A stretch of DNA of 32,456 nucleotides, from the IMG/VR virus record IMGVR_UViG_3300022888_000022, positions 1 through 32,456 of that record; one strand, given 5' to 3'. Both the position numbers and the translations under genes were made by a program. Shown here in pieces: positions 6,423 through 31,617 of the stretch (positions are counted from its first letter, which is position 1; every line of letters starts with the position of its first letter). The stretch comes from a virus. The notes under the pieces were generated by a model. The model ran no database searches and had not been told where the DNA came from. It saw only the letters and a list, made by a program, of their open reading frames with translations.

Positions 6423-6430
6423 TATTTATA
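6423..6430 (-). promoter_or_regulatory. T4-type late promoter
   Basis: TATAAATA on the minus strand, 29 bases upstream of the structural gene ATG at 6393. T4 late promoters need only this box, read by the phage sigma factor and the sliding clamp. A short GAAA-loop hairpin lies between it and the AAAGGAG ribosome-binding site. Confidence 0.75.
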
Positions 6431-8918
6431 ATTTCTTTGATTGCATTATATCGCGAATATTGCCTTCAAGAGAGCGGAATTTGTTTGGCTCATAAGACTC
6501 GATATACATATTTAATTCGTATTTGCCGCCGCCCATGCCGAATACCTGCATCTGGAGGGCTTTGTTCTTGACTTTCTTACCATTTTTCGTAACAGCGATA
6601 GAGAAAGAATTGGTATTACCTTCAGAAGGCTTTCTTGGACCAACCGCGACCTTGGTATGGTAATCGTCTTCATCTACCTCAAATCCACGCTCGGCGGCTT
6701 TGGCCACAGCATGTTGAACGGCCGATGAATACGAGTTATGGTAAACCACATAATCCGATTTCTTCTCAAGGACGAGGCTGCCTTCTGGTTCGGCTGATTC
6801 TTGTGTCTCTACCTTGGTGTTGCAACCACACTTGCAATCGGCGGGGCATTTACACTTACCAGTTTCATTTCCACAAGAGCATTTTTCGGTATCGCCACTA
6901 TTCTCATCTTCGGTCATGTCAATATCCTCAGCAAGTACCCAGCCTTTCTTTAGAAAAGCTTTAACCTCTTTGGACTTGACGCGCTTGACTTCTTGAGTCT
7001 TGGGATTAGCCACCAGCTCTGTGTCTGTATTAAAGAATTTGTCTTTATCTACGGACTTGCTTTTTATACCTTTGTTCTTTCTGTCATTCAATCCCTGAAA
7101 AAATGATTTGCCTTGACGCTCATCAAGACTTTCCTCATCCATTTTCGTCAACGGTTTTGGAGTATGATCATGGGATTTCTCGCCGCCAAATAAGACTTTT
7201 ACCGTCTTGTCTTTGCCATATCCCTTCCAGACTATCTCATGTGTATGACCATGGGCGCGGGTTGTCATAGGATCGAAATGATGGAAATCATGGGTATGTC
7301 CAGCGGAACTGTCGGTCGTCCATACGGCATATTCGTCGGATGTCATAGGCACAGCCGCTTGCATGGCCATATTACCTTTGTCGTCCATCTTTTTCTGAGG
7401 CACTTTAGCTTCGGCTTCAAAGAATAACTCCATCTCCTCGGCAGACATATCGTTCTCCTGAACGGCGGCTTTCAGGCCCTTATGAGATGCCCAGGCTTTA
7501 GCCATGAATTTCTCTTTCCGATCTGCGCCTTGAAGTGAATCAAACTTAGCCATTGCTTGTCTGGCGAGTGTAGGATTAACCTTCTCTTTCTTGCCATCCT
7601 TGAACGTGACGGGCTTCTGACCGCGGAGAGACACAACTTTACGGAGTTGCATGATAATATTTACAACTTTACCCTCGCCGTCATCTGCCTCTGAATCGTC
7701 ATCAACATCTGCCACGTCCTTCTTGGACAACATGCCAGTCTGGCCCATGTGGCGACGGGCATCACGTTGGGCACGGGCTGAATTGCTTCGGGCCTCGGTC
7801 AATTCTTCAGCGTGGCTGATGTCCGCCCAATTCTTAGCTTTGCGGCTTGCCATCATAATTGCCGCTTCTTTATCAGGAACATTTTTGACAGTGATTTTAC
7901 CGGTTCCGCCCTGTTTCTTTCTATAGAACACACGGAAGGTCTTTTTCGCTTCGCCAAGAATTTCGCCTCTCATTTGATCTAATACGCTCAAGGTTTCTTC
8001 TTCCATTTCAGTCTCCGTTGTCTTTAATGAATGGACATCTTGCTTACCGAGGCCCTCTTTGCGCCGTACTTTATATGCGGCTTCTTTTTCTGTGCGGGCT
8101 GTGACGGTGTGTTTACCGCGTGAACCACGAGTACCCATCATGTCCATCGAATATTCTGAGGATTCATCCATCGTCCATTTGACGCCGCCTGCAATTTTGA
8201 ATTTTGGTGCTGCGGCTTCCCTTTCAGTTTTGAAATCACCCATACGGAGTTTCTGTGTAGCTTCGTCGGTAGGACCATAACCTTTAGGTGTACGATCAGT
8301 GATTTTTGCACCCTTCTTGGACTGGTTCTTCTTGACCTTCGCCAGTATATTTTTCAGATGATCTGCCTTGGCTTTACCTTTAAGAAACTCTTTACCCTCG
8401 CCCAAACCACCAGCTCCAGCATCTGCTTCACGGTGTCTTGGCTCTGCGCGATTGACTGCTTGGGTCTGGACTGCTAGATTTTTCGGATCGTTATTCTCGG
8501 GATTGTTGTCTTTGTGATGGACGTCCATTTTGTCGCCCTTCTTGACTTTACCCAGTTTCTCCATAGCATAGCGGGCTCGTTTTCTCGCACGGTTCTTAGC
8601 CATCTGTTCTGGCTTACCGTGATAATTGGCGCGTTCTTTGGCGTAGTCCCGCTCGGCAAGAGTTTCCTCTTCCAGCTTAGGATTGACCTCAACAGGCTCC
8701 TTCTTAGCTTTCTTGCCCTTCTTACCGTCATCCGCTTCTGGATTATCCGTCTCTACGGAATTGTCGTCGTCCTTGGTCTTCTTATTACCAGCGGGCGCCG
8801 CAACACCTTGCTTCTCTGTTCTGGTATGAACTTCCACAATTTCCCAGCCCTTTGCCAACCATACGGATGGGAAAGCAACCTCTCTTACAGCACCATTTTT
8901 GGTAATCTTAGTCTTCAT
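6426..8918 (-). CDS. large Lys/Glu-rich structural or prohead protein with HNH-like, His-rich and Cys-rich segments
   Basis: An 830-residue, highly charged, low-complexity protein. The N terminus has WLAKGWEIVEV, echoed by FLKKGWVLAED at 655-664. Residues 98-160 hold a YHGKPEQMAKNRARKRAR-type stretch and DVHHKDNNPENNDPKNL (132-148), an HNH-like motif frequent in marine T4-like head proteins. There is a histidine cluster at 541-561 (HTHDFHH, HGHTHE) and seven cysteines within 680-699 in CxC spacing. Candidate (L/I)xE-Ala prohead-protease sites are LGEA (321-324) and LTEA (373-376). Its composition and position suggest a scaffold, core or internal head protein, but the exact role is unknown. 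Its first 11 bases overlap the upstream gene. Confidence 0.6.
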   Translation of the reverse strand: MKTKITKNGAVREVAFPSVWLAKGWEIVEVHTRTEKQGVAAPAGNKKTKDDDNSVETDNPEADDGKKGKKAKKEPVEVNPKLEEETLAERDYAKERANYHGKPEQMAKNRARKRARYAMEKLGKVKKGDKMDVHHKDNNPENNDPKNLAVQTQAVNRAEPRHREADAGAGGLGEGKEFLKGKAKADHLKNILAKVKKNQSKKGAKITDRTPKGYGPTDEATQKLRMGDFKTEREAAAPKFKIAGGVKWTMDESSEYSMDMMGTRGSRGKHTVTARTEKEAAYKVRRKEGLGKQDVHSLKTTETEMEEETLSVLDQMRGEILGEAKKTFRVFYRKKQGGTGKITVKNVPDKEAAIMMASRKAKNWADISHAEELTEARSNSARAQRDARRHMGQTGMLSKKDVADVDDDSEADDGEGKVVNIIMQLRKVVSLRGQKPVTFKDGKKEKVNPTLARQAMAKFDSLQGADRKEKFMAKAWASHKGLKAAVQENDMSAEEMELFFEAEAKVPQKKMDDKGNMAMQAAVPMTSDEYAVWTTDSSAGHTHDFHHFDPMTTRAHGHTHEIVWKGYGKDKTVKVLFGGEKSHDHTPKPLTKMDEESLDERQGKSFFQGLNDRKNKGIKSKSVDKDKFFNTDTELVANPKTQEVKRVKSKEVKAFLKKGWVLAEDIDMTEDENSGDTEKCSCGNETGKCKCPADCKCGCNTKVETQESAEPEGSLVLEKKSDYVVYHNSYSSAVQHAVAKAAERGFEVDEDDYHTKVAVGPRKPSEGNTNSFSIAVTKNGKKVKNKALQMQVFGMGGGKYELNMYIESYEPNKFRSLEGNIRDIMQSKKL

Positions 8919-14093: not shown

Positions 14094-14122
14094 ATCTTAC
14101 GACATTTTTAATGTAATGTCAA
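14094..14122 (-). promoter_or_regulatory. sigma70-type early promoter, copy B of a duplicated promoter-leader
   Basis: TTGACA (14122-14117), a 17-bp spacer and TAAGAT (14099-14094). It drives the PD-(D/E)XK-like gene. The stop codon of the metallopeptidase gene is embedded in the -35 box. The leader duplicates that of the promoter at 13236-13264. Confidence 0.85.
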
Positions 14123-14583
14123 GCGTTATTTTCGATTTTTAGCATTTCAGTGAACCGGATATATAAGCCGAGTTCACGCCCGTATGCTTCAATCTCCCAT
14201 GGATAGTCCCAGTAATCTATCTCGGCGAAATCAGTTTTCTTGCCTTGCCATTTGACTAAATCGGGAGCTGCCATATATTCCATCATCTCGCCCTTAGCAT
14301 ACTGTTTCACATGAACCATTTCATGGGCTAGTATTCTCAGGGTATCTGCGATTGGCATATCAGCATCTAACCGAATGGTGAAATCTCTTCCACGGTCATT
14401 CGTATCATCCCAAGTAGCTTCGCCGTTTATCCCATCATCTATATCAAGATTTTTGATGAGGTCTACATCTATCATCAGGACAGAAGAAAGCCGCGATCCC
14501 ATGAGCAACCCAGCATAGAAATGGGTCGCCATGATAATCGCGGCTTTTTTAGTCTTGTTTTTCGTGGAGACGTTGACAATCAT
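14119..14583 (-). CDS. putative zinc metallopeptidase (HExxH)
   Basis: A 154-residue protein with the zinc-peptidase motif HEMVH (residues 87-91) inside RILAHEMVHVKQYAKGE, followed by a C-terminal PWEIEAYGRE (128-137) that can supply the third, glutamate zinc ligand. The layout is that of SprT/minigluzincin-like small metallopeptidases, which are cytoplasmic. The target is unknown. There is no signal peptide. Monocistronic expression from an adjacent sigma70 promoter (14610-14638) with a GAGAAGAGAG ribosome-binding region suggests an early role, for instance cutting a host or defence protein; that last point is speculation. Confidence 0.7.
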   Translation of the reverse strand: MIVNVSTKNKTKKAAIIMATHFYAGLLMGSRLSSVLMIDVDLIKNLDIDDGINGEATWDDTNDRGRDFTIRLDADMPIADTLRILAHEMVHVKQYAKGEMMEYMAAPDLVKWQGKKTDFAEIDYWDYPWEIEAYGRELGLYIRFTEMLKIENNA

Positions 14584-14609: not shown

Positions 14610-14638
14610 ATAATAGCAAATAAGAGAGGTAATGTCAA
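14610..14638 (-). promoter_or_regulatory. sigma70-type early promoter of the metallopeptidase gene
   Basis: TTGACA (14638-14633), a 17-bp spacer ending in TTTGC and TATTAT (14615-14610), with extended -10 TGC. It sits seven bases after the stop codon of the helicase-HNH gene. Confidence 0.85.
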
Positions 14639-14644
14639 GCGTTT

Positions 14645-16471
14645 TTATGGTCCAGGGCGATATTTTTTATTGTGATAATCGCTATTGGCCACACTTTTCT
14701 CATGGTGCCTAGGCGAACAACACGTTTGGGCATTGTCAGGATTATCATTGCTGTGTTCACCATCCTTATGGTCACCATGCAAACCAGTCACATAATCTTT
14801 CTCGCTCATTCCACCGAGAGTAACATAAGTTGTGTAACATGCGGGATCGTCAGGGTGTCCAGGCAAGGACGGACAAATCTCACACCGTGCGCTGCGGTCA
14901 ATAGAAGTGCCATCTTGGACGAAAGCTGAACTGCTTCCTCGACTACGAGTTGATGTTACATTACTTAATGCTTTATCGGCTTTGCTATATTGCTCCAGTA
15001 AGAAAGCATCCCATTCAGTAGGATTCCATGTGTGGACTGAAAAGAACTGTTCAACGCCGGCGGCATTGATAGGAGAATCCACAATATGTACGTCATATTT
15101 GTAAACAGCGTCAATCCAGAAATCAATAACTTCCTCAGGAATACCCCTCTTTATCATCAAGGACCTATACTCGGCTAAATCAGTCCAGTTGTTGATGCCT
15201 TCAATCATCGGCCAGCGTAACTGCCGTCCTAATACTTGGACTACATTCTGGTGACAATCAAGCACTTTTACGATATGTCGATCCTTACAAATAACAATAC
15301 CAACACTATTGTTTATATTGACCGATTCTCCCGCATTATTGTTGGCAACCATAACGTCAATATCATTATCAGAATCATTTACAATCTGAACCATATTATA
15401 TGAAGTGAAAGCGTTCAGATTATTATATTTCGCCTCGGAACGCCCCTGAGAATAACCTGAAATCCTTTTACTTTCAGAAATATTCAGTGCCAGTCGTTCT
15501 TGATTCTCATAATCCAAAGATAAGGTTTCAAAGATGTTCATAGCAGAGATAGGATTAGGATTGTTGGGGTCGTTGTTCATGCCTTGAATGATGAAAGACA
15601 TATTGCTCTTTTTAAGATCGAAATGATCTTCAATATCTGCTATCTGGCTCTTTAATGTTTTGAACTCTTCATGTTTTTCTTGAATAACATCAAACGTCAA
15701 CTCGCCACAGTCAGTGACATACGGAGCTCCATCCAATCCGAACAGTTTTGCCCGATCCGAATATAGATAAATGTCTCTCACTGCCGCTTGATTGAATGTT
15801 AAGATATCTCGGTCGAAAAAGCTAGAAATTATCTTATATTCACTGGTATTCTGGGTAGTTTTCAGAGGCGTAGCAGTTACCAGAAAAACCGCAACAGCAT
15901 CTAGACTTGTGATAGTGTGATGCCACGTTCCTGTATAGCTGCTTCCGAAGTTGTATCCAGCATTCGTAGAAGCCTGATACCCATTGGCAGTCATGTAACC
16001 CTTGTGTCCCTCATCAGTAATCACAACAGTAGAAATCATCTGTGTTAAGCGATGGACTACATTTTGGTGACTGGAGATGCCAGTCGGATGACTAATGAGA
16101 ATAGTGTTCTTGTTGGGATCAATAGAAGGAAGGGGAGTTAATCCTGTGAAATCCGTATACATAATCACTTCACAGCTTGAATCCACACTCTTTACTACAT
16201 CCATATATACTTCATGTAAAGAAGCATGATTGGGAGAAGTATAAATCTGGAGCATAATATCAGTGTGACTGACCAAAAACGGAGCAATGGCATTACAGTA
16301 TGAGTATGTTTTACCAGCTGATGTACTCAAAGCCGCAACATATAGCAAATCAGGGGTCAAATCCAACTCAAGATTTTCGCGGATTTGTTCGATTATGGGA
16401 TAAACAATGTCTTTTTCCTGATAATCGTACAATCCCCTATCTTCAAGGAACTCTTTCAAGTCTTTCATCAT
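14645..16471 (-). CDS. SF2 helicase-like ATPase fused to a C-terminal HNH nuclease domain
   Basis: A 608-residue protein. The helicase part has a Q-motif-like LYDYQEK (14-20), Walker A STSAGKT (49-55), Walker B VITDEGH (150-156), motif III ATP (200-202) and motif VI VQVLGRQLR (411-419), a set close to the Res/type III restriction branch of SF2. The C-terminal 80 residues form a zinc HNH domain: CEIC (530-533), HGDHKDG (565-571), N580 and CCSPRHH (584-590). This predicts ATP-driven translocation linked to DNA cleavage. It is not UvsW, Dda or gp41. It has its own early promoter (16502-16530). Host DNA degradation, anti-plasmid, anti-phage or selfish-mobility roles are all possible. Confidence 0.7.
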   Translation of the reverse strand: MMKDLKEFLEDRGLYDYQEKDIVYPIIEQIRENLELDLTPDLLYVAALSTSAGKTYSYCNAIAPFLVSHTDIMLQIYTSPNHASLHEVYMDVVKSVDSSCEVIMYTDFTGLTPLPSIDPNKNTILISHPTGISSHQNVVHRLTQMISTVVITDEGHKGYMTANGYQASTNAGYNFGSSYTGTWHHTITSLDAVAVFLVTATPLKTTQNTSEYKIISSFFDRDILTFNQAAVRDIYLYSDRAKLFGLDGAPYVTDCGELTFDVIQEKHEEFKTLKSQIADIEDHFDLKKSNMSFIIQGMNNDPNNPNPISAMNIFETLSLDYENQERLALNISESKRISGYSQGRSEAKYNNLNAFTSYNMVQIVNDSDNDIDVMVANNNAGESVNINNSVGIVICKDRHIVKVLDCHQNVVQVLGRQLRWPMIEGINNWTDLAEYRSLMIKRGIPEEVIDFWIDAVYKYDVHIVDSPINAAGVEQFFSVHTWNPTEWDAFLLEQYSKADKALSNVTSTRSRGSSSAFVQDGTSIDRSARCEICPSLPGHPDDPACYTTYVTLGGMSEKDYVTGLHGDHKDGEHSNDNPDNAQTCCSPRHHEKSVANSDYHNKKYRPGP

Positions 16472-16501: not shown

Positions 16502-16530
16502 ATTATATCAAAGATCGTGGTATTTGTCGA
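16502..16530 (-). promoter_or_regulatory. sigma70-type early promoter of the helicase-HNH gene
   Basis: TCGACA (16530-16525, one mismatch), a 17-bp spacer ending in TTTGA, and TATAAT (16507-16502), with extended -10 TGA. The TAA stop of the 71-residue gene upstream lies within the -10 box. Confidence 0.75.
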
Positions 16531-16718
16531 GCGTTTATTTGTGCTTTTTGCAAAATAAATTTGGGTGTAAATCCACCAAATCCTCTGCCACCCTCACATT
16601 GGCGCTTGAACTTCCTTGCTTTTGATCTATCGGCGAAAGTGGCGATGATCATTCCAGAAAGGATTTCAAAGACTGTCCAGTCGCCGCCGTCTAGCATTTC
16701 AATGCGATATTTGGTCAT
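16503..16718 (-). CDS. small protein downstream of gp41
   Basis: A 71-residue protein starting MTKYRIEMLDGGDWTVFE, a short alpha/beta protein with a basic middle (DRSKARKFKRQCEGGRGFGG). The ATG at 16718 overlaps the gp41 stop codon (ATGA), so it is preferred over the upstream start of the open frame, and translation is probably coupled to the helicase. The pattern of an opening strand with WTVFE and a later ARKFKR helix suggests a small nucleic-acid- or protein-binding module, but I recognise no family. Confidence 0.6.
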   Translation of the reverse strand: MTKYRIEMLDGGDWTVFEILSGMIIATFADRSKARKFKRQCEGGRGFGGFTPKFILQKAQINARQIPRSLI

Positions 16719-18142
16719 ACGTTGAACCCCGAAAAATCTCGTTTGCCCATCTTTTTGGTTGCCCATTTCATTTGATCATCTTCCTTTGCCCTTTGTCCGT
16801 ACTGTGAGTTGTCCATAACGGGAGTATCGTCTTGATCATCGTCCGTCTGTGCGGATTGTTCGACGTTGTAAAGCCTCATTTTCGCCCTATCCACACCAAC
16901 CACAAACCGTTTGTATGTATTGACGTCCGCATACCTGTTTTTTAGCTGTTTGACCATAATCTGATTCAACGCCTCAAGCTCCTCATTGGTGACCAGAGCC
17001 ACCATCCAATCTACGGTCGCTGGAAGTCCGAAGGACTCAGATGTATCTTCCATGCCAGGGTCTGAATTAGAGAAGCCAGAGCGGGTTGTTTGTGTCGCGG
17101 AGATGATGGGCAGATTTTTTTCAACGGCAAGCCCTCTTATCTCTTCGGCTATCGATTTGATATATGTGTAGGAATTGACGTTGGCACCAAATTTCATTCT
17201 CACCGAAATACAGATGTTGAGGTAATCGATGAAGATAACCTTGGGCACAAAATTCCTTTTCAGCTTCAACTCGTTTAGGAGATGCCTGAATTGACCCACA
17301 CCAGCAGCCGCTGTGGGATACTCATGGATGATCAATTTGCCCTTTGTTCTGGCTTTTAGTCTGCCAATCTTGTCGTCAAATACACTTTTATCGGTATGTT
17401 CAATATCATCCAATCGGATATTCAGGAGATTCGCATCGATCCTTTCGGCGATTCTCTCTTCTGCCATCTCCATGGTAATGTATAGAACGTCATTGCCCGA
17501 CTCCAGATATTTCGCCGCCATGTGGCACATGACCAGAGTTTTGCCTACGCCTGTACCAGCCAAAAGCACATTCAGAGTTTTGTTGGGCAACCCGCCTTTG
17601 GTGATTTTGTTGAAATATTCCAGATCGAATGGAATACGGTCTTCCTTGAGGTGATAGAAATCGAACCTATTCTCGGCGTCTTCCAGAAAATCATGGCCGA
17701 TGTGGCTATCAAAACATACGGACAGAGCCTTTGTCATAATCTCAGGAATGGACCCAGTCGATTTGGTGGCATCATCGCTGTCGATAATAGCAATCGATTC
17801 CATAATCCCGTTATAGACGGCTTTGTCCTGACAGAATTTCTCCGTATTCTCCATGAGCCATCTATCGTCCATGGCGTCATGCTTTGCCGCAATGATATCA
17901 AGGAGGCTATTTGCAAGATCGAATGACCCTTCGGTCAGTTCGGGATCATTGTCCAGTTCAATGGCAATGGCCGATTTCGTAGGTATATTGTTGTATTTTT
18001 CAAAGAATCCTTTCAGTTTGAGGAAAAGAATTCTTTCAGTTGGGTCTTGAAAATAGGCATCATCAATAAACGGTAGTACCTTACGGTTGTATTCTTCATC
18101 AAAAAATAAACTATTGAGAATCGTCGTTTCTATTCGGCTCAT
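16715..18142 (-). CDS. 41: replicative DNA helicase gp41 (DnaB family)
   Basis: A 475-residue DnaB-type helicase. The N-terminal domain (about 1-150) is helical. The RecA-like motor has Walker A AGTGVGKT (195-202), the H1a segment with MEMAEERIAERID (224-236), Walker B VIFIDYLNI (302-310) and a later SATQTTRSGF segment. The protein unwinds duplex DNA 5' to 3' as a hexamer and works with primase gp61, whose gene lies downstream at the left edge. The start at 18142 is chosen because AGGAGAGAAG precedes the ATG. The first 32 bases overlap the preceding gene. No intein interrupts this copy, although gp41 is a known split-intein host in metagenomic phages. Confidence 0.93.
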   Translation of the reverse strand: MSRIETTILNSLFFDEEYNRKVLPFIDDAYFQDPTERILFLKLKGFFEKYNNIPTKSAIAIELDNDPELTEGSFDLANSLLDIIAAKHDAMDDRWLMENTEKFCQDKAVYNGIMESIAIIDSDDATKSTGSIPEIMTKALSVCFDSHIGHDFLEDAENRFDFYHLKEDRIPFDLEYFNKITKGGLPNKTLNVLLAGTGVGKTLVMCHMAAKYLESGNDVLYITMEMAEERIAERIDANLLNIRLDDIEHTDKSVFDDKIGRLKARTKGKLIIHEYPTAAAGVGQFRHLLNELKLKRNFVPKVIFIDYLNICISVRMKFGANVNSYTYIKSIAEEIRGLAVEKNLPIISATQTTRSGFSNSDPGMEDTSESFGLPATVDWMVALVTNEELEALNQIMVKQLKNRYADVNTYKRFVVGVDRAKMRLYNVEQSAQTDDDQDDTPVMDNSQYGQRAKEDDQMKWATKKMGKRDFSGFNV

Positions 18143-18413
18143 CTTCTCTCCTGGCAAGCTCTTTTTCAATAATATCACAGAGGATTTCGAACAAGATTGG
18201 TTCGATTTCCTCGCCGATTGTCATGTCGTTATGTTCTATTATATCATAGGAGAACCGAAAGTTCAACCCTTCATCTGTCGCTGGATCAACATTATCTGGG
18301 ATGGATACCCAATTATATCGATATACGACATTTTCAAAGGCACCCTCCCTAATAACAACAGCGTACCAGGGGTCTTCGTCGGTACCATGTTCAATCGTTT
18401 CATATTTTATCAT
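18111..18413 (-). CDS. conserved phage protein of unknown function
   Basis: A 100-residue acidic protein (MIKYETIEHGTDEDPWYAVV ... VVYRYNWVSIPDN). The combination of a W(Y/F)AV strand and an early YRY segment recurs in small uncharacterised proteins of T4-like phages. The end is an acidic helix with many Glu/Asp. Its ATG overlaps the upstream stop (ATGA) and its 3' end overlaps gp41 by 32 nt, so it belongs to the uvsX-gp41 operon. No catalytic motif is visible. Confidence 0.65.
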   Translation of the reverse strand: MIKYETIEHGTDEDPWYAVVIREGAFENVVYRYNWVSIPDNVDPATDEGLNFRFSYDIIEHNDMTIGEEIEPILFEILCDIIEKELARREDEPNRNDDSQ

Positions 18414-18757
18414 TTATGTGCCTCACATAATGTCCTGAGCCAGCTACCGTCCCTAATTTCGCCTGGCTCACCACAATCTTCGCATGTATTTTCTGATAGG
18501 TGTTCTGCGCCAGATATGATGTCCATAATTTCAATCGAGGATGCCGAGGTATAGAATCTCAAAGAGCCGAATTTCTCTTTCACTTGAAAGGCGACCACCT
18601 GGTGCCCGGTCTTATCAGATAGGGCTTGGAGTTCTCCGCAAAGATCGTCAATGATTTTATACCAACCATCGCCAGTTTCGATCTGAATGAAGAATTCGCC
18701 AGGGGGAAATATCTTCGGATACTTATTGAGTAACGCCTTTTCACGCCACGCTTTCAT
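18410..18757 (-). CDS. conserved phage protein with zinc-binding end
   Basis: A 115-residue protein of a family I know only as a conserved phage hypothetical. It contains GDGWYKIIDDLC, then VVAFQVKEKFGSLRFYT, and ends with a CxxC pair (TCEDCGEPGE) and a WLRTLCEAHK cysteine/histidine end, which together could bind zinc. The open frame extends far upstream into uvsX, but the ATG at 18757 sits behind AAGGAG and gives the compact family form; it overlaps the uvsX C-terminal frame by 17 nt. The function is unknown. It is co-transcribed with uvsX and gp41. Confidence 0.75.
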   Translation of the reverse strand: MKAWREKALLNKYPKIFPPGEFFIQIETGDGWYKIIDDLCGELQALSDKTGHQVVAFQVKEKFGSLRFYTSASSIEIMDIISGAEHLSENTCEDCGEPGEIRDGSWLRTLCEAHK

Positions 18758-19256
18758 CTTCATCTCCTTCAGTCTCTTCGGCCATAGAAGAGCCGTATAG
18801 ATACATCTTGCCCACTTGGGCATCACAAGCATCCAGAACATCTTGAGTAAAATACTTCTCAGGGTTGCGATAGATTTCTTTCTCCCATTGCTTTGAACCA
18901 TCTTGGAGTTCAATGCGCCCGGCTTTCTTCCAGATGCCAGAAGCCACAGCAACATCAGGGAGACCGTGATAACGAGACAGACCGTCAGCATAGGTGAGTT
19001 CTACACGGGCAATACTCTTCTCTTTGGTGAGCCGTGATTTCTGGAGACGGCATGAGATAATGTTACCCACAAACTCGGTACCGTCTTTCACCTGAGCCTT
19101 AGACAAGAACACGATTGTAGAGGCTGAATATTTCAAGCCACTGTTATGTGACACCACACCATTTTCTAAAACATAGTTGCCGTTATTCAATACAGTAATA
19201 TCCATTACTGATTGTTTGCCAACAGGGCGTATAGATTTGATTTTCAGATTATTCAT
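18741..19256 (-). CDS. uvsX: split intein C-fragment fused to C-terminal part of UvsX recombinase
   Basis: A 171-residue precursor. Residues 1-38 are an intein C-fragment: block F-like VMDITVLNNGNYVLENGV, then VVSHN, with the penultimate His and terminal Asn needed for Asn cyclisation. Residue 39 is Ser, the +1 nucleophile. Residues 39-171 continue UvsX/RecA from loop L2: SGLKYSASTIVFLSKAQ, then DGTEFVGNII. With the N-terminal precursor at 19976-20893 this should trans-splice into a 349-residue recombinase. The ATG overlaps the stop of the HNH gene (ATGA) and there is no close Shine-Dalgarno, so its synthesis may depend on translation of the endonuclease gene. Confidence 0.92.
   Translation of the reverse strand: MNNLKIKSIRPVGKQSVMDITVLNNGNYVLENGVVSHNSGLKYSASTIVFLSKAQVKDGTEFVGNIISCRLQKSRLTKEKSIARVELTYADGLSRYHGLPDVAVASGIWKKAGRIELQDGSKQWEKEIYRNPEKYFTQDVLDACDAQVGKMYLYGSSMAEETEGDEDESVA
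19143..19256 (-). other. IntC segment of split intein
   Basis: These 38 codons encode the C-terminal intein fragment ending VVSHN. The size is close to known natural split inteins such as gp41-1 (37 residues). Splicing would leave Ser at the extein junction. Confidence 0.9.
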
Positions 19257-19939
19257 AATATACGGATTTCCTTGATACCATTTTGTTTTAGTAAATGATT
19301 ATATTCATTTGTTAGTTTCATGCCGTATGAAACACTTTTTCCGATAACAGGACCTATAGATATTTTATTTTTCACATGGGTTTCCTTTCCGTCCAGGAAC
19401 ACTATAACACAACCGATATTTGCTTTTTCAGAAAGATATTTTTTAGTTTCCTTGCTGTGTTTTTTACCCGCAAAAGCATTAGGATTATGTTTATGGTATT
19501 CCTTATTCATCTTACTAATATGAGCCCTGGTTTCCGCTGTATGGATTTTACCATAGAAAGGATTGTTCTCACCACTCATGCTACTGTTACCATAGAAAGG
19601 ATTGTTCTCACCTCTCATAGCATCAGCCGCATTTTTTCTATGAATCTCAAACATCAAAGATGATTTACATCTGTTACCTTTACTATTTGACCTATTCATC
19701 ATAGAAAAAGCATAACCCATAGACCGTTTTGCTTTTGACTCTTTACACATTTTCAATAATAACCAATGGCAAAGAAAATGTTCTCTGGGAGTTAGTGTTG
19801 CGATATTATATTTCGCGTTAGAACCACCGAGACATTTGGGAATAATATGATGTTTTTCAACATATTGGAGTTCCCTTTTCTTTCTTCCATTAGATATTAT
19901 TTGAAAATACCATTTGGTATATTTGTTATCAATAAACAT
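19253..19939 (-). CDS. HNH homing endonuclease inside the fractured uvsX gene
   Basis: A 228-residue free-standing endonuclease. The HNH motif is VEKHHIIPKCLGGSN (27-41), N45 and PREHFLCHW (51-59). Two NUMOD3-type repeats, GENNPFYG (near residues 110 and 122), and a following THTAETRAHISK-like helix make the DNA-contacting tail, with a further GKKHSKETKKYLSEKA segment. It lies exactly between the two uvsX halves. Homing endonucleases cut intein-free or intron-free alleles and spread their locus through repair. It has its own late promoter (19964-19957) and an AAGGAG Shine-Dalgarno, while the flanking uvsX parts belong to an earlier transcription unit. Its stop overlaps the IntC start. Confidence 0.88.
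   Translation of the reverse strand: MFIDNKYTKWYFQIISNGRKKRELQYVEKHHIIPKCLGGSNAKYNIATLTPREHFLCHWLLLKMCKESKAKRSMGYAFSMMNRSNSKGNRCKSSLMFEIHRKNAADAMRGENNPFYGNSSMSGENNPFYGKIHTAETRAHISKMNKEYHKHNPNAFAGKKHSKETKKYLSEKANIGCVIVFLDGKETHVKNKISIGPVIGKSVSYGMKLTNEYNHLLKQNGIKEIRIL
19548..19612 (-). repeat. 26-bp direct repeat encoding duplicated NUMOD3 motifs
   Basis: Identical 26-bp copies at 19548-19573 and 19587-19612, 39 bases apart in register, encode the two GENNPFYG motifs of the HNH endonuclease. The identity at DNA level suggests a recent tandem duplication or gene conversion within the DNA-binding tail. Confidence 0.85.
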
Positions 19940-19956
19940 GATTTCTCCTTCATGCT

Positions 19957-19964
19957 TATTTATA
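19957..19964 (-). promoter_or_regulatory. T4-type late promoter of the HNH endonuclease gene
   Basis: TATAAATA on the minus strand in the 36-base gap between the IntN stop codon and the HNH start. The predicted start site near 19951 would leave a very short leader that begins at the AAGGAG Shine-Dalgarno. Confidence 0.7.
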
Positions 19965-19975
19965 AAAACAATATT

Positions 19976-20893
19976 TTACGTCTGTACCACCGTGAAGTTT
20001 TCAAGGTCTTTTTCAGCTATTTCTCTGGTAGTGATCCATTCGCCTTCAGATAAGAAACGGTGGTCCTCTGAACAAATGACTCTATGACCATCCTCAAACA
20101 CTATTTCATAACATGGTTTTTCATAAAAATATTTGTCTGTTACTTGTCCAAAACCATCCTTAGTTTCAACCCACGAATCTACAACTACATCTTCCATGCG
20201 CCGCAAACCATTTTGTGTTCTAATAACAGTTTCAGGAACAACACAGCCACCGCCCATTTGCTTGCCACCATACATACTCATGGAGTCGTATGTATGATTG
20301 GTGACTAGCAACGGAATACCAATCTTGCCTAGTTTCAACGTCAGCACTCTGAATGTGGCTTTTGCGATAGCCGCGCGGGTCATATCTTTCGTTTCAGAAC
20401 CCTCAAGGGTATCCTCAATCTCTTTGGTCGTTGAGAGCATACCAAAGGAATCCAACGCCATAATCATCGGGCGCTTCTCTTCCTGTTTCTCGTAGTTGTC
20501 CAAAATCTTGAGGGACTGGGTCCGAAACTCTTGGATGGTTGTAACAGGCACAATCATTACTCGGGTTGAGTCAATGCCACGGTCTTCAATCATATTCTTG
20601 GAGATAGCAGACTCAGACTCAAAGAAAATACAAACACCCTCTGGCTCATTATCCAGAAAATGCTTGATAACACCCAAGACGAAAAAGGTCTTGCCCGTGG
20701 CTTCTTCACCAGCAATAGCGGTAATCTTGTTGTTTGGAATGCCACCGAAAATGCTACCGCTCATTAGAGCATTGAACATATACGACCCGGTATCCATAAA
20801 ATCAGTAACATCACCCGCTGTGACGCCATCGGCTGCTACCGCGGCATACTCGTTATTGATGCCTTTGGTCATTGTTTTAAAAAAGTCAGTCAT
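19976..20893 (-). CDS. uvsX: N-terminal part of UvsX recombinase fused to split intein N-fragment
   Basis: A 305-residue precursor. Residues 1-216 are the RecA-family core of UvsX: Walker A GEEATGKT (62-69), FFESESA with the catalytic Glu (90-96), Walker B IMALDSFG (144-151) and [20 protein letters not shown] (197-216), which leads into DNA-binding loop L2. Residue 217 is Cys1 of an 89-residue IntN: block [11 protein letters not shown], block [14 protein letters not shown], then a stop. UvsX forms filaments on ssDNA and drives recombination-dependent replication. It is active only if joined to the C part at 18741-19256. The ATG at 20893 is preferred over the longer frame, since AGGAG precedes it and the extension runs through a palindrome. 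Confidence 0.93.
19979..20245 (-). other. IntN segment of split intein
   Basis: These 89 codons encode the N-terminal intein fragment with Cys1 (block A) and a block B SxxH (S59, H62 of the fragment), as in gp41-1-type inteins, where the N-fragment is 88 residues. The fragment ends at a stop codon after block B; no endonuclease block is present within the protein. Confidence 0.9.
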
Positions 20894-20942
20894 ATTTTCT
20901 CCTATGAATAAATTATTGTTCGTATGATGCTCAAACCCTAAA

Positions 20943-20991
20943 TGGTCTATAAACAGGCCATAAAGAGCCTTTATGGCCTGTTTATAGACCA
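20943..20991. repeat. 23-bp perfect inverted repeat upstream of uvsX
   Basis: Arms 20943-20965 and 20969-20991 are perfectly complementary, with a three-base loop. No T-run follows on either strand, so it is not a typical terminator. It lies 50 bases upstream of the uvsX ATG. Its minus-strand 5' arm contains TATAAACA, one base from a late promoter. The 180 bases between it and the gene at 21174 hold no supported gene, only a 24-codon frame (21045-20971) ending in the palindrome. Confidence 0.85.
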
Positions 20992-21173
20992 AAGAATGTC
21001 ATTATATAAATCCGAACACCAAGGACGAATGCTATCCAGAAACATGCTATAAATCTCGCTTGTTTGATTCAATTCACTGGATTTAGAAGTTCAGGGTCCA
21101 TTTGAATAAATGATACTGACCCTGTAAAAACACTATGGGTAAAAACATGAATACCAAAATCGTCGGGGTGAGT

Positions 21174-21611: not shown

Positions 21612-21640
21612 ATAATAACATATCCGCTGGGTAATGTCAA
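21612..21640 (-). promoter_or_regulatory. sigma70-type early promoter downstream of gp43
   Basis: TTGACA (21640-21635), a 17-bp spacer ending in TATGT and TATTAT (21617-21612), with extended -10 TGT. The TGA stop of the gp43 C-terminal part is embedded in the -35 box. It drives the two small genes and possibly uvsX beyond. Confidence 0.85.
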
Positions 21641-22746
21641 CCGAAAAACGCTTCAAGGGTCGCGCTATTATCGGTCTTCCATCCAATCACATCGGCGATA
21701 TTTCTAACAGGCGTCATGAAATTCCTATCAAACTGGAGGTCATAATCGATGTATTTTTCGATCCCGAATTCCTCAGGCAGTTCTGTCGATACGCAAAGCA
21801 CAGGAGAACCGATTGGATTGGGCTCTACCAAATAGCAGGCTTTGATTTTCTCGCCCTCCCTGATCTGTTCATACTTCTTGGTCAGCTTCCGTTCGTGGAG
21901 AAGATGGTTGAAAATCAACGCGCCTTTAACATGGAATGGTGTGCCGAGAATGAAAATGCCTTTTGTGTCGGCATACTTTTTCATACCATTCACACCAGAT
22001 GGTTTCGCCACGTCCATGAAATCCATCTTACGGAACTTTTCCTCAAAGGCAGTAATATGTTCGACTAGCTCGGCGGGTGTGCCATTCAACATAATCCGTA
22101 GGCATTCCCGAATAGCTTCCCTACACTCATAAGGAGTTGAAGATCGAACAACCTCAAGTCCCATAATCTTCACTTGAGGTTCGGCATATCGGACGCCCTC
22201 ATTATCAAGGACGTTCAATGCATAGCGTTTTTTGTTGGTCCATATACCGTTAGTTGCAATGACCTCGCGCTTCATTTTCATTTTTTGCTTGGAATTAAGT
22301 GTCTTAGCAAGGTCTTGATAACATCGATCAATAAACGGTTCAATTTTAGTGCTTGCCACCTTATCCAAAAAGGAAACGATCTGTTCCTTCGGAGTATCCC
22401 CTTCCACCGGGAACACAGTATCAACAAGGCCACTAAGATTGAGATAGACCGAATCTGTATCGCTTGCAATAACATAATCTTTGCCCTCCGTCTTTAGGAG
22501 ATTATTCAGATACTTATTCAACTTGGTCTCAATGAATCTGATGGCGACTTGGCCCGAAAGTGTAATGGCCTCGGCGTTCCGCAAATCGTAAAATCTGAAA
22601 TACTGGCTGCCCATGGCGCCATATGCGGAGTTAAGAGTGACTTTCAATGCCAACTGGAGATTGCTATACCTTGAAATTTCATCATCGGTCAGAGCCAGTT
22701 CATTTTTCAGTTCCTGGTCGGATAGTTCTTCTAGTTTTAATACCAC
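21637..22746 (-). CDS. 43: DNA polymerase gp43, C-terminal part (fingers helix, palm, thumb)
   Basis: About 369 residues forming the C-terminal part of a B-family polymerase. Motif B lies in NLQLALKVTLNSAYGAMGS, motif C is VIASDTDSVYL with both catalytic Asp, and a YALNVLDNEGVRYAEPQVKIMG-type palm/thumb segment follows (quoted in part: YALNVLDNEGVRY). The chain begins just before the second fingers helix, so it complements the N-terminal part at 23584-25047. No ATG is available: a GTG at 22746, seven bases after GGGAG, is the likely start, with TTG at 22749 an alternative. No intein residues flank it, so activity probably depends on non-covalent assembly of the two chains. Confidence 0.9.
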   Translation of the reverse strand: MVLKLEELSDQELKNELALTDDEISRYSNLQLALKVTLNSAYGAMGSQYFRFYDLRNAEAITLSGQVAIRFIETKLNKYLNNLLKTEGKDYVIASDTDSVYLNLSGLVDTVFPVEGDTPKEQIVSFLDKVASTKIEPFIDRCYQDLAKTLNSKQKMKMKREVIATNGIWTNKKRYALNVLDNEGVRYAEPQVKIMGLEVVRSSTPYECREAIRECLRIMLNGTPAELVEHITAFEEKFRKMDFMDVAKPSGVNGMKKYADTKGIFILGTPFHVKGALIFNHLLHERKLTKKYEQIREGEKIKACYLVEPNPIGSPVLCVSTELPEEFGIEKYIDYDLQFDRNFMTPVRNIADVIGWKTDNSATLEAFFG

Positions 22747-22891
22747 CAAGTTGCTCCCAATATTTAACTAACTCATTCCATTGTAACACATTTCCACCCA
22801 AACCACAAGTAAAAACGTGTTCTTCTACATTTGCCCAATCATGGCAGACTGGACAACAGAATTCTATTTTCGGCTGGCTATCTGGGCACAT
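22700..22891 (-). CDS. possible small zinc-finger protein overlapping the gp43 break
   Basis: A 63-codon frame with four cysteines (MCPDSQPKIEFCCPVCHDW, then EEHVFTCG) and a W-containing helix near its end (LQWNELVKYWEQLGG), loosely like restriction-alleviation (Lar-type) zinc proteins. The ATG at 22891 has GGAGG eight bases upstream. Against it, that Shine-Dalgarno is also Gly-Gly coding sequence in the GIY-YIG gene, and the frame overlaps that gene by 28 nt and gp43-C by 47 nt. It is reported with low confidence as a possible passenger of the homing insertion. Confidence 0.35.
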   Translation of the reverse strand: MCPDSQPKIEFCCPVCHDWANVEEHVFTCGLGGNVLQWNELVKYWEQLGGIKTRRTIRPGTEK

Positions 22892-23538
22892 TTTTTTCTT
22901 CCTCCAACATCGGCGCATTTTCTACTACAGAATCTATTATTCTTACTGGGAATAATTTCAAATTCTGAGCCACATTGGACACAGCACCTTATTACTCTAT
23001 GGATCATATTTTTATCTATTAATACTTTGGGTTTCTTAATACCATGTTCATTCAGTATTTTTTTCAAATAAGAAACGCTTATTCCATAATATTCAGCAAG
23101 ATCAGATCGTTTTTTGTTTTCGTTTACATACAAATTGTATAGTTCCTCATATGAGGGATCAATTTTTCTTAGTGCCCGTTTCTTCTCTTTATATGATCTT
23201 TTTCTTGCGGTAGTCCATTCATAACTACGAGATCCTTTACCCTCAAATATGTTTTTCAGCGGTCCTCCAGTATTGAATGTTCCCAGACGACTAATTAATT
23301 TTTCCTCATACTCTAAAGCATCATTTTCCACTTCACTTTCAAAAATATGTTGAATAATAGGAATATTATTATTTTCCATCAACCTTTTGATATGACTGTA
23401 AAGATATGGATTACTGCTGGTTTTGGGGTTATTCCATATCGATTTCTGCAAGTGGTGTTTACTTCTTCTATGCTTTCCTTTACCCACATAAAATATTTGA
23501 GCGGTCATGGGGTCTGTTAGAGTATACACATAATACAT
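22864..23538 (-). CDS. GIY-YIG homing endonuclease inside the fractured gp43 gene
   Basis: A 224-residue free-standing endonuclease. The GIY-YIG core begins at residue 2 (YYVYTLTDP, then IFYVGKGKHRR with the catalytic Arg region), followed by the glutamate-containing LEYEEKLISRLG. The middle has a helix-turn-helix-like segment (RSDLAEYYGISVSYLKKIL). The C terminus is a zinc knuckle (CCVQCGSEF, then FCSRKC), so DNA is probably bound by both parts. It sits between the two gp43 parts. A late promoter (23579-23572) lies upstream, unlike the early promoter of gp43. T4-like phages carry similar Seg-type enzymes that promote their own spread. Confidence 0.85.
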   Translation of the reverse strand: MYYVYTLTDPMTAQIFYVGKGKHRRSKHHLQKSIWNNPKTSSNPYLYSHIKRLMENNNIPIIQHIFESEVENDALEYEEKLISRLGTFNTGGPLKNIFEGKGSRSYEWTTARKRSYKEKKRALRKIDPSYEELYNLYVNENKKRSDLAEYYGISVSYLKKILNEHGIKKPKVLIDKNMIHRVIRCCVQCGSEFEIIPSKNNRFCSRKCADVGGRKKCAQIASRK

Positions 23539-23571
23539 CTTTTTATCCTACTTTACTATATCCTATATTCG

Positions 23572-23579
23572 TATTTATA
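23572..23579 (-). promoter_or_regulatory. T4-type late promoter of the GIY-YIG endonuclease gene
   Basis: TATAAATA on the minus strand, in the 45-base gap between the stop of the gp43 N-terminal part and the endonuclease ATG at 23538. Confidence 0.7.
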
Positions 23580-23583
23580 CAAA

Positions 23584-25047
23584 TCAGGTTTTCAACCCGC
23601 GGGATTCAATTTCTTTTAGGATTTCTTCTTTTCGCTTTCTAGCATCCATCATCTTGTTTTTTGCTGTCACACGACCATCATACATTTCACCCATGATGGT
23701 TGATAACATACCCTCAAATTCACGGGTATACATGGCACCATTCCCGGCGACAGAGAAGGTATCATGGAGTGGTTCGGTAACTCTCTCGTAAATGATATCC
23801 TCAATATTGATATCCATCGGCTCAGGCTGAATGGTTTCTGGTCCGATATTGAACTGGCGAATAAGCATTGGATACATAGAGGCTAGATCGAACGACATAA
23901 CCCACTTATGTTCGCCAATCAACGGCTGTTTAACATATGCTCCCTCGTAGGTATCCGACTTCTGATATACCTTCTTGGGTGAAACCACAATGCCCCTATT
24001 CAACAAATGGTTGGCAGTAATTGTATCCCACATCCTCACTTGCTTCTGGACATCAGGGATATTCACCTTGGTCAGGTACGCCAATGACAGGATCAAATCG
24101 ATCAAGCCCAGCTTATCGTCAAGGCGGTCGACCAACACAACGTCCTGAATGTTGTATTCGATAAACTTTTGATAATCATTCTTATATAGGAGATGGAGGG
24201 CGCCGTGTTCGGAGTAATCCAGTTTCTGCTCACCCAATTCAATCCATGCAATGTGATTCAGTTTGTAGGATTCTTGGGAACCACCACCGAATTTCTGGTA
24301 TAGAATGATGTAATCGGCTTCGGCAACGCCTACAATCTCGTAGGCTTGAACTCGGTTGCCATACCCTTGGTTGAATGTCCGTTCATATATCTTACCCCAG
24401 GGCGATAGCTTGTTCGCTACCTTTTCGCCCATGAGATTGGTAATTCGATTCACCAGATAGGGAATATCAAAGAGCTGGATATACCATCCAGTCACAACAT
24501 CGGGATAATCGGATGCCCAGAAATCCAGAAAGTTCAAAAGCAATTCTTTCTCATTCTGGCATTTCCGATAGAACACCTTATCTGGTGTTTTGTTGTCGAA
24601 TTCCCCGCAGCCAAATACCCAGTATTTGCCACCGATACCTACCGTGATCGATACGACTTCCTCTGTGGCTGGACCTGGTTCGGGGAAACCATTTTCAGAC
24701 GCAACCTCAATATCGATATTGGCAACGCGGAGTAATGATGAATCGAAATCGATATCACCATTCCATCGCTCGTTAATGTATGCGTAATTGTATAGGTTGT
24801 TGCCATATACCGTGACGTTGGCTACGTCACTATATGACTTGTAGAAATCCCTGGCTTCGCGGATGCTTTCAAACTGCATAGGACTGACATTGGTGCCATC
24901 CATAGCTTTGAAGCCAGAGTCTGTTTCTTGGGTTGCCACGTATAGGGTGGGCTTGTACGGCACCTTCTTAGAGTAACGTTCGGTACCTCGAACGCCTCTA
25001 AGGAGGATATTATTGCCGTAAACTTGAACGTCGGTATAAAAATCCAT
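23584..25047 (-). CDS. 43: DNA polymerase gp43, N-terminal part (exonuclease and palm motif A)
   Basis: A 487-residue N-terminal part of a T4-type family B polymerase. Exonuclease motifs are Exo I ANIDIEVA (D112, E114), Exo II GWYIQLFDIPY (187-197) and Exo III EYNIQDV (297-303). Polymerase motif A is DLASMYPMLI (387-396). The chain ends after a charged helix (KEEILKEIESRG) at the tip of the fingers, so motifs B and C are missing and are supplied by 21637-22746. The Asn common in Exo II is Tyr here. Transcription starts from the promoter at 25074-25102, with an AGAGGA Shine-Dalgarno. Together the parts would give a polymerase of about 856 residues, normal for the family. Confidence 0.93.
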   Translation of the reverse strand: MDFYTDVQVYGNNILLRGVRGTERYSKKVPYKPTLYVATQETDSGFKAMDGTNVSPMQFESIREARDFYKSYSDVANVTVYGNNLYNYAYINERWNGDIDFDSSLLRVANIDIEVASENGFPEPGPATEEVVSITVGIGGKYWVFGCGEFDNKTPDKVFYRKCQNEKELLLNFLDFWASDYPDVVTGWYIQLFDIPYLVNRITNLMGEKVANKLSPWGKIYERTFNQGYGNRVQAYEIVGVAEADYIILYQKFGGGSQESYKLNHIAWIELGEQKLDYSEHGALHLLYKNDYQKFIEYNIQDVVLVDRLDDKLGLIDLILSLAYLTKVNIPDVQKQVRMWDTITANHLLNRGIVVSPKKVYQKSDTYEGAYVKQPLIGEHKWVMSFDLASMYPMLIRQFNIGPETIQPEPMDINIEDIIYERVTEPLHDTFSVAGNGAMYTREFEGMLSTIMGEMYDGRVTAKNKMMDARKRKEEILKEIESRGLKT

Positions 25048-31484: not shown

Positions 31485-31548
31485 TATAACCTCAATTCAA
31501 AATAATCATTCGTAATATATAGCTGTTTTGGTACGCCCTCACAGTAGG

Positions 31549-31597
31549 CCCAAAAAATAAATACAAGCCACCAGCCGGTGAGAAGCCGGCTGGTGGC
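31549..31597 (-). terminator. rho-independent terminator after the CobS-like ATPase gene
   Basis: A 12-bp GC-rich perfect stem (31567-31578 with 31586-31597) and 7-base loop, followed on the minus strand by a T-rich run ending in six Ts. It is the only strong intrinsic terminator I found in the window. The 133-base gap (31485-31617) holds no gene. Confidence 0.88.
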
Positions 31598-31617
31598 ACC
31601 CCTCTAGGGAGAGAAAC

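Follow-up and report, generated by a model that had tools for sequence, protein, structure and literature searches.

A gene next to gp41 in a T4-like phage appears to place an ATPase motor and an HNH nuclease in one protein chain, which raises the question of what kind of gene it is and which DNA its product would act on. The gene lies in a stretch of 32,456 nucleotides, called the window here (positions 1 to 32,456 of IMG/VR record IMGVR_UViG_3300022888_000022). Its product, P0001, is encoded by an intact open reading frame (ORF) of 608 aa on the minus strand, with an ATG at 16471, a stop codon at 14645-14647, and no internal stops; the plus strand across the same interval has many stops throughout. 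A sequence-only reading had given the coordinates correctly and omitted the strand. The motifs it had listed (Walker A, DEGH, TATP, motif VI, CEIC, HGDHKDG, and CCSPRHH) were every one found in the translation, together with a motif V-like stretch, SVNIN, that was absent from its list. SF2 motifs I, II, III, V, and VI all occur in order, as judged from the alignment with the related protein P0015 described below and from a four-protein alignment (Table 1), and the HNH motifs occupy residues 530-533 (CEIC), 565-571 (HGDHKDG), and 584-590 (CCSPRHH).

Table 1. Features of the P0001 gene, its flanks, and the empty P0015 site, in window coordinates.
Feature	Position	Strand	Remarks
Right neighbour P0007, 154 aa, metallopeptidase-like	14119..14583	-	
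Promoter-like AAACGCTTGACA-N17-TATTAT	14610..14644	-	right after the P0001 stop, ahead of the next gene
P0001, SF2 (ResIII-class) motor and C-terminal HNH, 608 aa	14645..16471	-	
Predicted HNH domain, residues 528-604	14660..14890	-	
Predicted catalytic triad H568, N580, H589	14768-14770, 14732-14734, 14705-14707	-	assigned by alignment
Motif VI QVLGRQLR, residues 412-419	15215..15238	-	same Q, G, R, R in all four aligned proteins
Motif V-like SVNIN, residues 383-387	15311..15325	-	same S, I, N in all four aligned proteins
Motif III TATP, residues 199-202	15866..15877	-	alignment with P0015
Motif II DEGH, residues 153-156	16004..16015	-	alignments
Motif I (Walker A) STSAGKT, residues 49-55	16307..16327	-	aligns with TGNGKT in P0015 and with TASGKS in UvsW-type proteins
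Promoter-like AAACGCTCGACA-N17-TATAAT	16502..16536	-	upstream of P0001, within the end of the preceding ORF
Left neighbour P0008, small ORF, 87 aa	16503..16766	-	
gp41 replicative helicase (DnaB type)	16715..18178	-	synteny anchor
Empty P0015 site, 133-bp gap between AAA ATPase and phrog_1574 genes	31485..31617	-	

By itself, P0001 stayed below all curated profile cut-offs, reaching 14.8 bits against Pfam DEAD (cut-off 26) and 17.7 bits (E 0.0055) against a PHROG HNH family; by these scores it is a highly divergent protein, and its motif reading could not be proved from P0001 alone, so that outside support was needed. No significant match was found in Pfam, PHROG, PADLOC, NCBIfam, PDB, cultured phages, or plasmids, and hits to ureidoglycolate lyase and KaiA were discarded as sub-threshold noise. 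AlphaFold2 returned a pLDDT of 31 for P0001 alone and 33 with four sequences. A tblastn search of 50,697 phage records gave no match at E 1e-5 and four records at E up to 10; the weak phage matches of P0001 led to a type I HsdR as well as small HNH proteins. Peptide-pattern scans of viral contigs gave no significant match, a silence that leaves room for divergent relatives, since these scans need near-exact matches of eight residues, and the two matches to a DNA pattern for HGDHKDG were both by chance. Because no phage matched at E 1e-5, relatives were sought through the neighbouring gp41, which fetched 41 loci whose whole records were then searched.

This route led to P0015, a 574-aa ORF (L049:4484-6208) on a T4-like sister contig (G002, IMGVR_UViG_3300024299_000060) whose gp41 is 77% identical to that of the window; a second contig carries P0015 at 100% identity. 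P0015 consists of an SF2 motor followed by a C-terminal HNH, so that the domain order of P0001 recurs in another phage, and the two proteins align co-linearly over their full length at 26% identity. Invariant between them are the SF2 residues T50, G53, K54, T55, D153, E154, H156, T201, and P202, as well as S383, I386, N387, Q412, G415, R416, and R419 further along the motor, and D567, H568, N580, and H589 in the HNH; the HNH and motif VI residues are thus kept in a homologue. P0015 itself passed Pfam ResIII (39.7 bits, cut-off 22.5, E 6e-10) and the DEAD cut-off, scored 14.5 bits against SNF2, under the cut-off of 24.9, and reached 19.5 bits against HNH_3. Through P0015, the motif reading of P0001 is confirmed at the level of sequence, and the proposal of a one-chain SF2 motor and HNH nuclease is supported by the same architecture and key residues in both proteins. 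Wider searches with the alignment of the two returned the sister gene only, and a search with P0015 gave no match in species genomes or plasmids.

The two halves can be assigned separately. The motor of P0001 is, by its motifs and its alignment with P0015, of the ResIII class of SF2. The HNH half belongs with small free-standing phage HNH endonucleases: six such proteins matched the HNH half of the P0001/P0015 pair in hhalign (E 2e-12, probability 97.7) and that of P0001 alone in a profile comparison (E 6e-8). The D570-G571 spacing as well as H568, N580, and H589 are common to P0001, P0015, and all six. These proteins, known from Vibrio phage SBP1, Microcystis phage MaeS, Salmonella phage ZCSE2, and E. 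coli phage fHy-Eco03, share about 57 homologous residues with P0001, including D-H-x-D-G, N, H, and a C-terminal NGDY-like tail, and are encoded by single ORFs between other phage genes, one of them directly behind the major capsid gene. Unlike P0001, they measure 97-124 aa, carry no ATPase motor, and keep a fourth zinc Cys (CANCH). The zinc set of P0001 and P0015 is atypical in this respect: the first CxxC is kept (C530, C533), and the second pair reads CxxR in P0001 and CxxQ in P0015, where the fourth Cys is replaced by Arg (CSPRH) and Gln (CSPQH), respectively. Two CxxC zinc knuckles are not universal among HNH proteins.

Comparison of related records disclosed that the genes of P0001 and P0015 occupy two different intergenic sites, each flanked by conserved genes and vacant in relatives. 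At locus L003 of the record that carries P0015, gp41 is followed by a 62-aa P0008 homologue that overlaps a 150-aa P0007 homologue by 7 bases, and the 1.8-kb P0001 gene is absent from between them; the site is likewise empty in L002 and in the more distant outgroup L005, where gp41, one 61-aa ORF, and a P0007-like gene are consecutive. P0015, in turn, has an AAA ATPase gene on one side and a phrog_1574 gene on the other, and these two are adjacent in the window and in the outgroups G006, G013, and G040 (gaps of about 130-161 bp between matches in the latter three). As each site is empty in relatives and the sites differ, both genes are derived insertions in sister lineages, and the P0001 gene is apparently not part of the viral core but a mobile nuclease gene that was inserted recently. 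In the 28 related records searched, no relative of P0001 was found beyond the two contigs with P0015; P0001 itself is known from one contig, and neither a cut site nor a homing event nor any in-population polymorphism was observed. The GC3 of P0001, 0.384, is the lowest of 33 compared ORFs after the two homing endonuclease ORFs.

An N6/N4 DNA methylase is encoded in the sister (L003:12083-12904) directly behind the P0007 homologue. Unrelated genes occupy that position in the window, which places the P0001 site near the edge of conserved synteny. Window-type and sister-type contigs (L078 and L081; gp43 N part 100% and 68%, respectively) were found in one metagenome, 3300005838, indicating that the two populations coexist.

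Two further nuclease insertions in the same phage, in uvsX and gp43, agree with a homing-type reading of P0001. The window uvsX (18741-20992, minus strand) is split; its N half ends with an intein N part, an intein C part (...NGVVSHN-S) opens its C half, and a homing endonuclease ORF (NUMOD3, HNH-like; 19253-19939) lies between them, an arrangement that by sequence is of the 'fractured gene' split-intein type. The gp43 DNA polymerase gene (21637-25047, minus strand) is divided into ORFs of 487 and 370 aa around a GIY-YIG-like ORF (22864-23538), and obvious intein motifs are absent. In the sister phage uvsX is uninterrupted and gp43 is intact (826 aa). Elsewhere in the window, an 830-aa ORF (6426-8918, minus strand) encodes a long, charged product with an HNH-like stretch, VHHKDNNPENNDPKNL, at residues ~100-165; this may be an HNH embedded in a structural or internal protein.

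The promoter of its own that had been proposed for P0001 was borne out as a sigma70-type consensus, with the core TCGACA-17-TATAAT and an extended -10 (16530-16502). It belongs to a family, AAACGCTTGACA-N17-TATWAT, with six matches in the window (minus strand 1394, 3536, 14128, 14644, and 16536; plus strand 10468) against 0.09 expected. No member was found in the sister loci L003 and L050, and none precedes the two other homing-type ORFs of the window. Promoter-like sequences stand in front of and directly behind both the P0001 and the P0015 gene; the idea that such direct repeats are transposition scars was rejected, since the same motif precedes other genes.

We favour the reading that P0001 is a mobile, free-standing homing-type (HEG-like) HNH nuclease gene equipped with a ResIII-class motor in a marine T4-like phage, with a probability of about 0.5. 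An HNH half from the free-standing pool and different intergenic sites in sister phages suggest this reading, and HNH is a known homing class. Free-standing homing endonuclease genes of T4 are intergenic, between conserved genes, and the HNH enzymes of the Mob group nick DNA and are over-inherited (PMC2988022). Like T4 Mob and Seg genes, P0001 is an accessory intergenic nuclease gene in the orientation of its neighbours that is missing in related phages (PMC2988022). Unlike P0001, however, T4 Mob proteins combine the HNH with a C-terminal DNA-binding region and have no ATPase. Profile searches recognised no DNA-binding domain in P0001, the rest of the chain being SF2 motor and linker; we therefore say that P0001 would work like a homing endonuclease rather than being a standard member. 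The literature searched yielded no homing endonuclease known to carry an SF2 motor.

In the proposed mechanism, the ResIII-class SF2 ATPase motor would replace or supplement the usual DNA-binding part, hydrolyse ATP on DNA, and move along or remodel it, thereby licensing or positioning the C-terminal HNH to nick or cut, by analogy with ZRANB3 and CasDinG-HNH. In both of these proteins, HNH cutting depends on the SF2 ATPase in the same chain (PMC5481773; PMC11981726). ZRANB3 likewise has an SF2 motor with a C-terminal HNH, and its D-H...N...H pattern matches D567-H568...N580...H589 (PMC5481773), but its motor is of SNF2 type, and it is a eukaryotic fork remodeller with NZF and PCNA motifs. CasDinG-HNH, from a variant type IV-A CRISPR system, also carries its HNH C-terminally to an SF2 motor and degrades dsDNA directionally in an ATP-dependent manner that requires both sites (PMC11981726); unlike P0001, it has a DinG/XPD-type motor with an Arch domain and is guided by a CRISPR complex. 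A CRISPR DinG identity was rejected, as only ResIII and DEAD matches were obtained, and no cas family appeared among the PHROG, Pfam, or PADLOC matches of the scanned ORFs. The motor-plus-cutter build of P0001 is rare.

The target is probably the DNA of related phages. A cut would be made in those lacking the gene, close to the insertion site, and repair off the carrier would copy the P0001 gene (intronless homing) or exclude the flanking markers of the rival. That P0001 cleaves DNA, needs ATP to do so, acts on this target, and homes is in each case inferred. More tentatively, P0001 might be an ATP-powered homing or phage-exclusion nuclease, in which the motor scans DNA or travels along it from a loading site and drives a distant HNH cut. 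The mobile gene could then spread, or rival phages be excluded, with no need for a site-specific DNA-binding domain of the classical kind. Such an ATP-powered class of mobile nuclease is not described in the literature searched.

A doubtful alternative, close to what the sequence-only reading had put forward, is an early effector that moves along DNA of the host, of plasmids, or of unrelated competitors and degrades it, while the phage's own DNA is protected; it could include an Odn-type anti-satellite nuclease. The strong promoter speaks for it, being drawn from the window's own family, as do the presence of motor and nuclease in one chain and an accessory distribution, as is usual for conflict genes. 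Endonuclease-specific promoters of T4 are never early (PMC2988022). The P0001 promoter, which is presumably early, is of the class found at the phage's ordinary genes, something unusual for homing genes of T4; early expression would fit takeover or exclusion better, and an early role in exclusion or against the host is conceivable. Satellites, furthermore, can become targets of nucleases whose genes are related to homing endonucleases (PMC10448857). The HNH, however, comes from the free-standing phage pool and the insertion pattern is HEG-like, leaving a general aim at host, plasmid, or competitor DNA unsupported. PADLOC returned nothing for P0001 and only weak matches for P0015. Protection by modification, also suggested from the sequence alone, found no counterpart either: the window ORFs searched contained no recognisable DNA-modification gene, and a methylase is present only in the sister.

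The family relationship of the two proteins can also be questioned. A common phage HNH cassette could have been joined twice, each time to a different SF2 motor; P0001 and P0015 would then not form one family, and fusion would have occurred repeatedly, an origin compatible with any proposed function. In shuffle tests, the HNH halves of the two proteins (z = 13.8) were much more alike than the motor halves (z = 7.2), which keeps independent fusions in play, and the score of the P0015 motor against P0001 was exceeded by its score against one UvsW-type protein (z 11.3). The C-terminal motor half taken alone gave z = 0.5, so that motifs V and VI only make the case for this part. Against two fusions stand the full-length co-linearity, the BLAST match of the N-terminal motor (E 3e-4, compared with 1e-7 for the HNH part), and two features common to both proteins, namely a long insertion ahead of HxDH (CY..YV...SE......LH) and the loss of the fourth Cys. 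We consider separate origins unlikely, and full-length common descent of P0001 and P0015 is the simplest reading of the alignment.

P0001 lies beside gp41, with uvsX and gp43 not far away, and could instead serve replication or recombination in the phage. It would then be a structure-specific endonuclease that uses ATP and clears stalled forks or joint molecules in the manner of ZRANB3, whose cutting needs ATP hydrolysis (PMC5481773). The neighbourhood varies, however, with P0015 located between the AAA ATPase and phrog_1574 genes and the gp41-side site empty in relatives, and separate UvsW-type ResIII proteins of ~490 aa without an HNH are already present in several related phages. P0001 shares with UvsW a ResIII-class SF2 motor, with motifs I, II, V, and VI aligned, but an identity with UvsW was rejected because only the motifs align and the N-terminal region of UvsW does not; UvsW-type proteins matched the P0001/P0015 profile weakly (probability 35) and P0001 alone not at all. 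The earlier view that P0001 is distinct from UvsW, gp41, and Dda is supported, and a replication role appears improbable. That P0001 is the restriction half of a type III-like restriction-modification pair, its HNH standing in for the customary PD-(D/E)XK nuclease, is very improbable despite the ResIII-class motor and the N6/N4 methylase of the sister, since that methylase is >14 kb from P0015, none adjoins P0001 or P0015 or occurs among the searched window ORFs, and P0001 is short for a Res subunit and shows no sign of PD-(D/E)XK.

Free-standing homing endonucleases shape phage genomes and settle whose genes survive co-infection. If the homing-type reading of P0001 is correct, a homing nuclease with a built-in ATPase motor would represent a new way to find and cut a target, and the few SF2-HNH proteins, ZRANB3 and CasDinG-HNH, would be joined by one with a third type of motor. 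It also bears on a question from the T4 field, that is, how an HNH nick turns into a recombinogenic break. The reciprocal insertions, together with the presence of both sister phages in metagenome 3300005838, make the claim of mobility testable.
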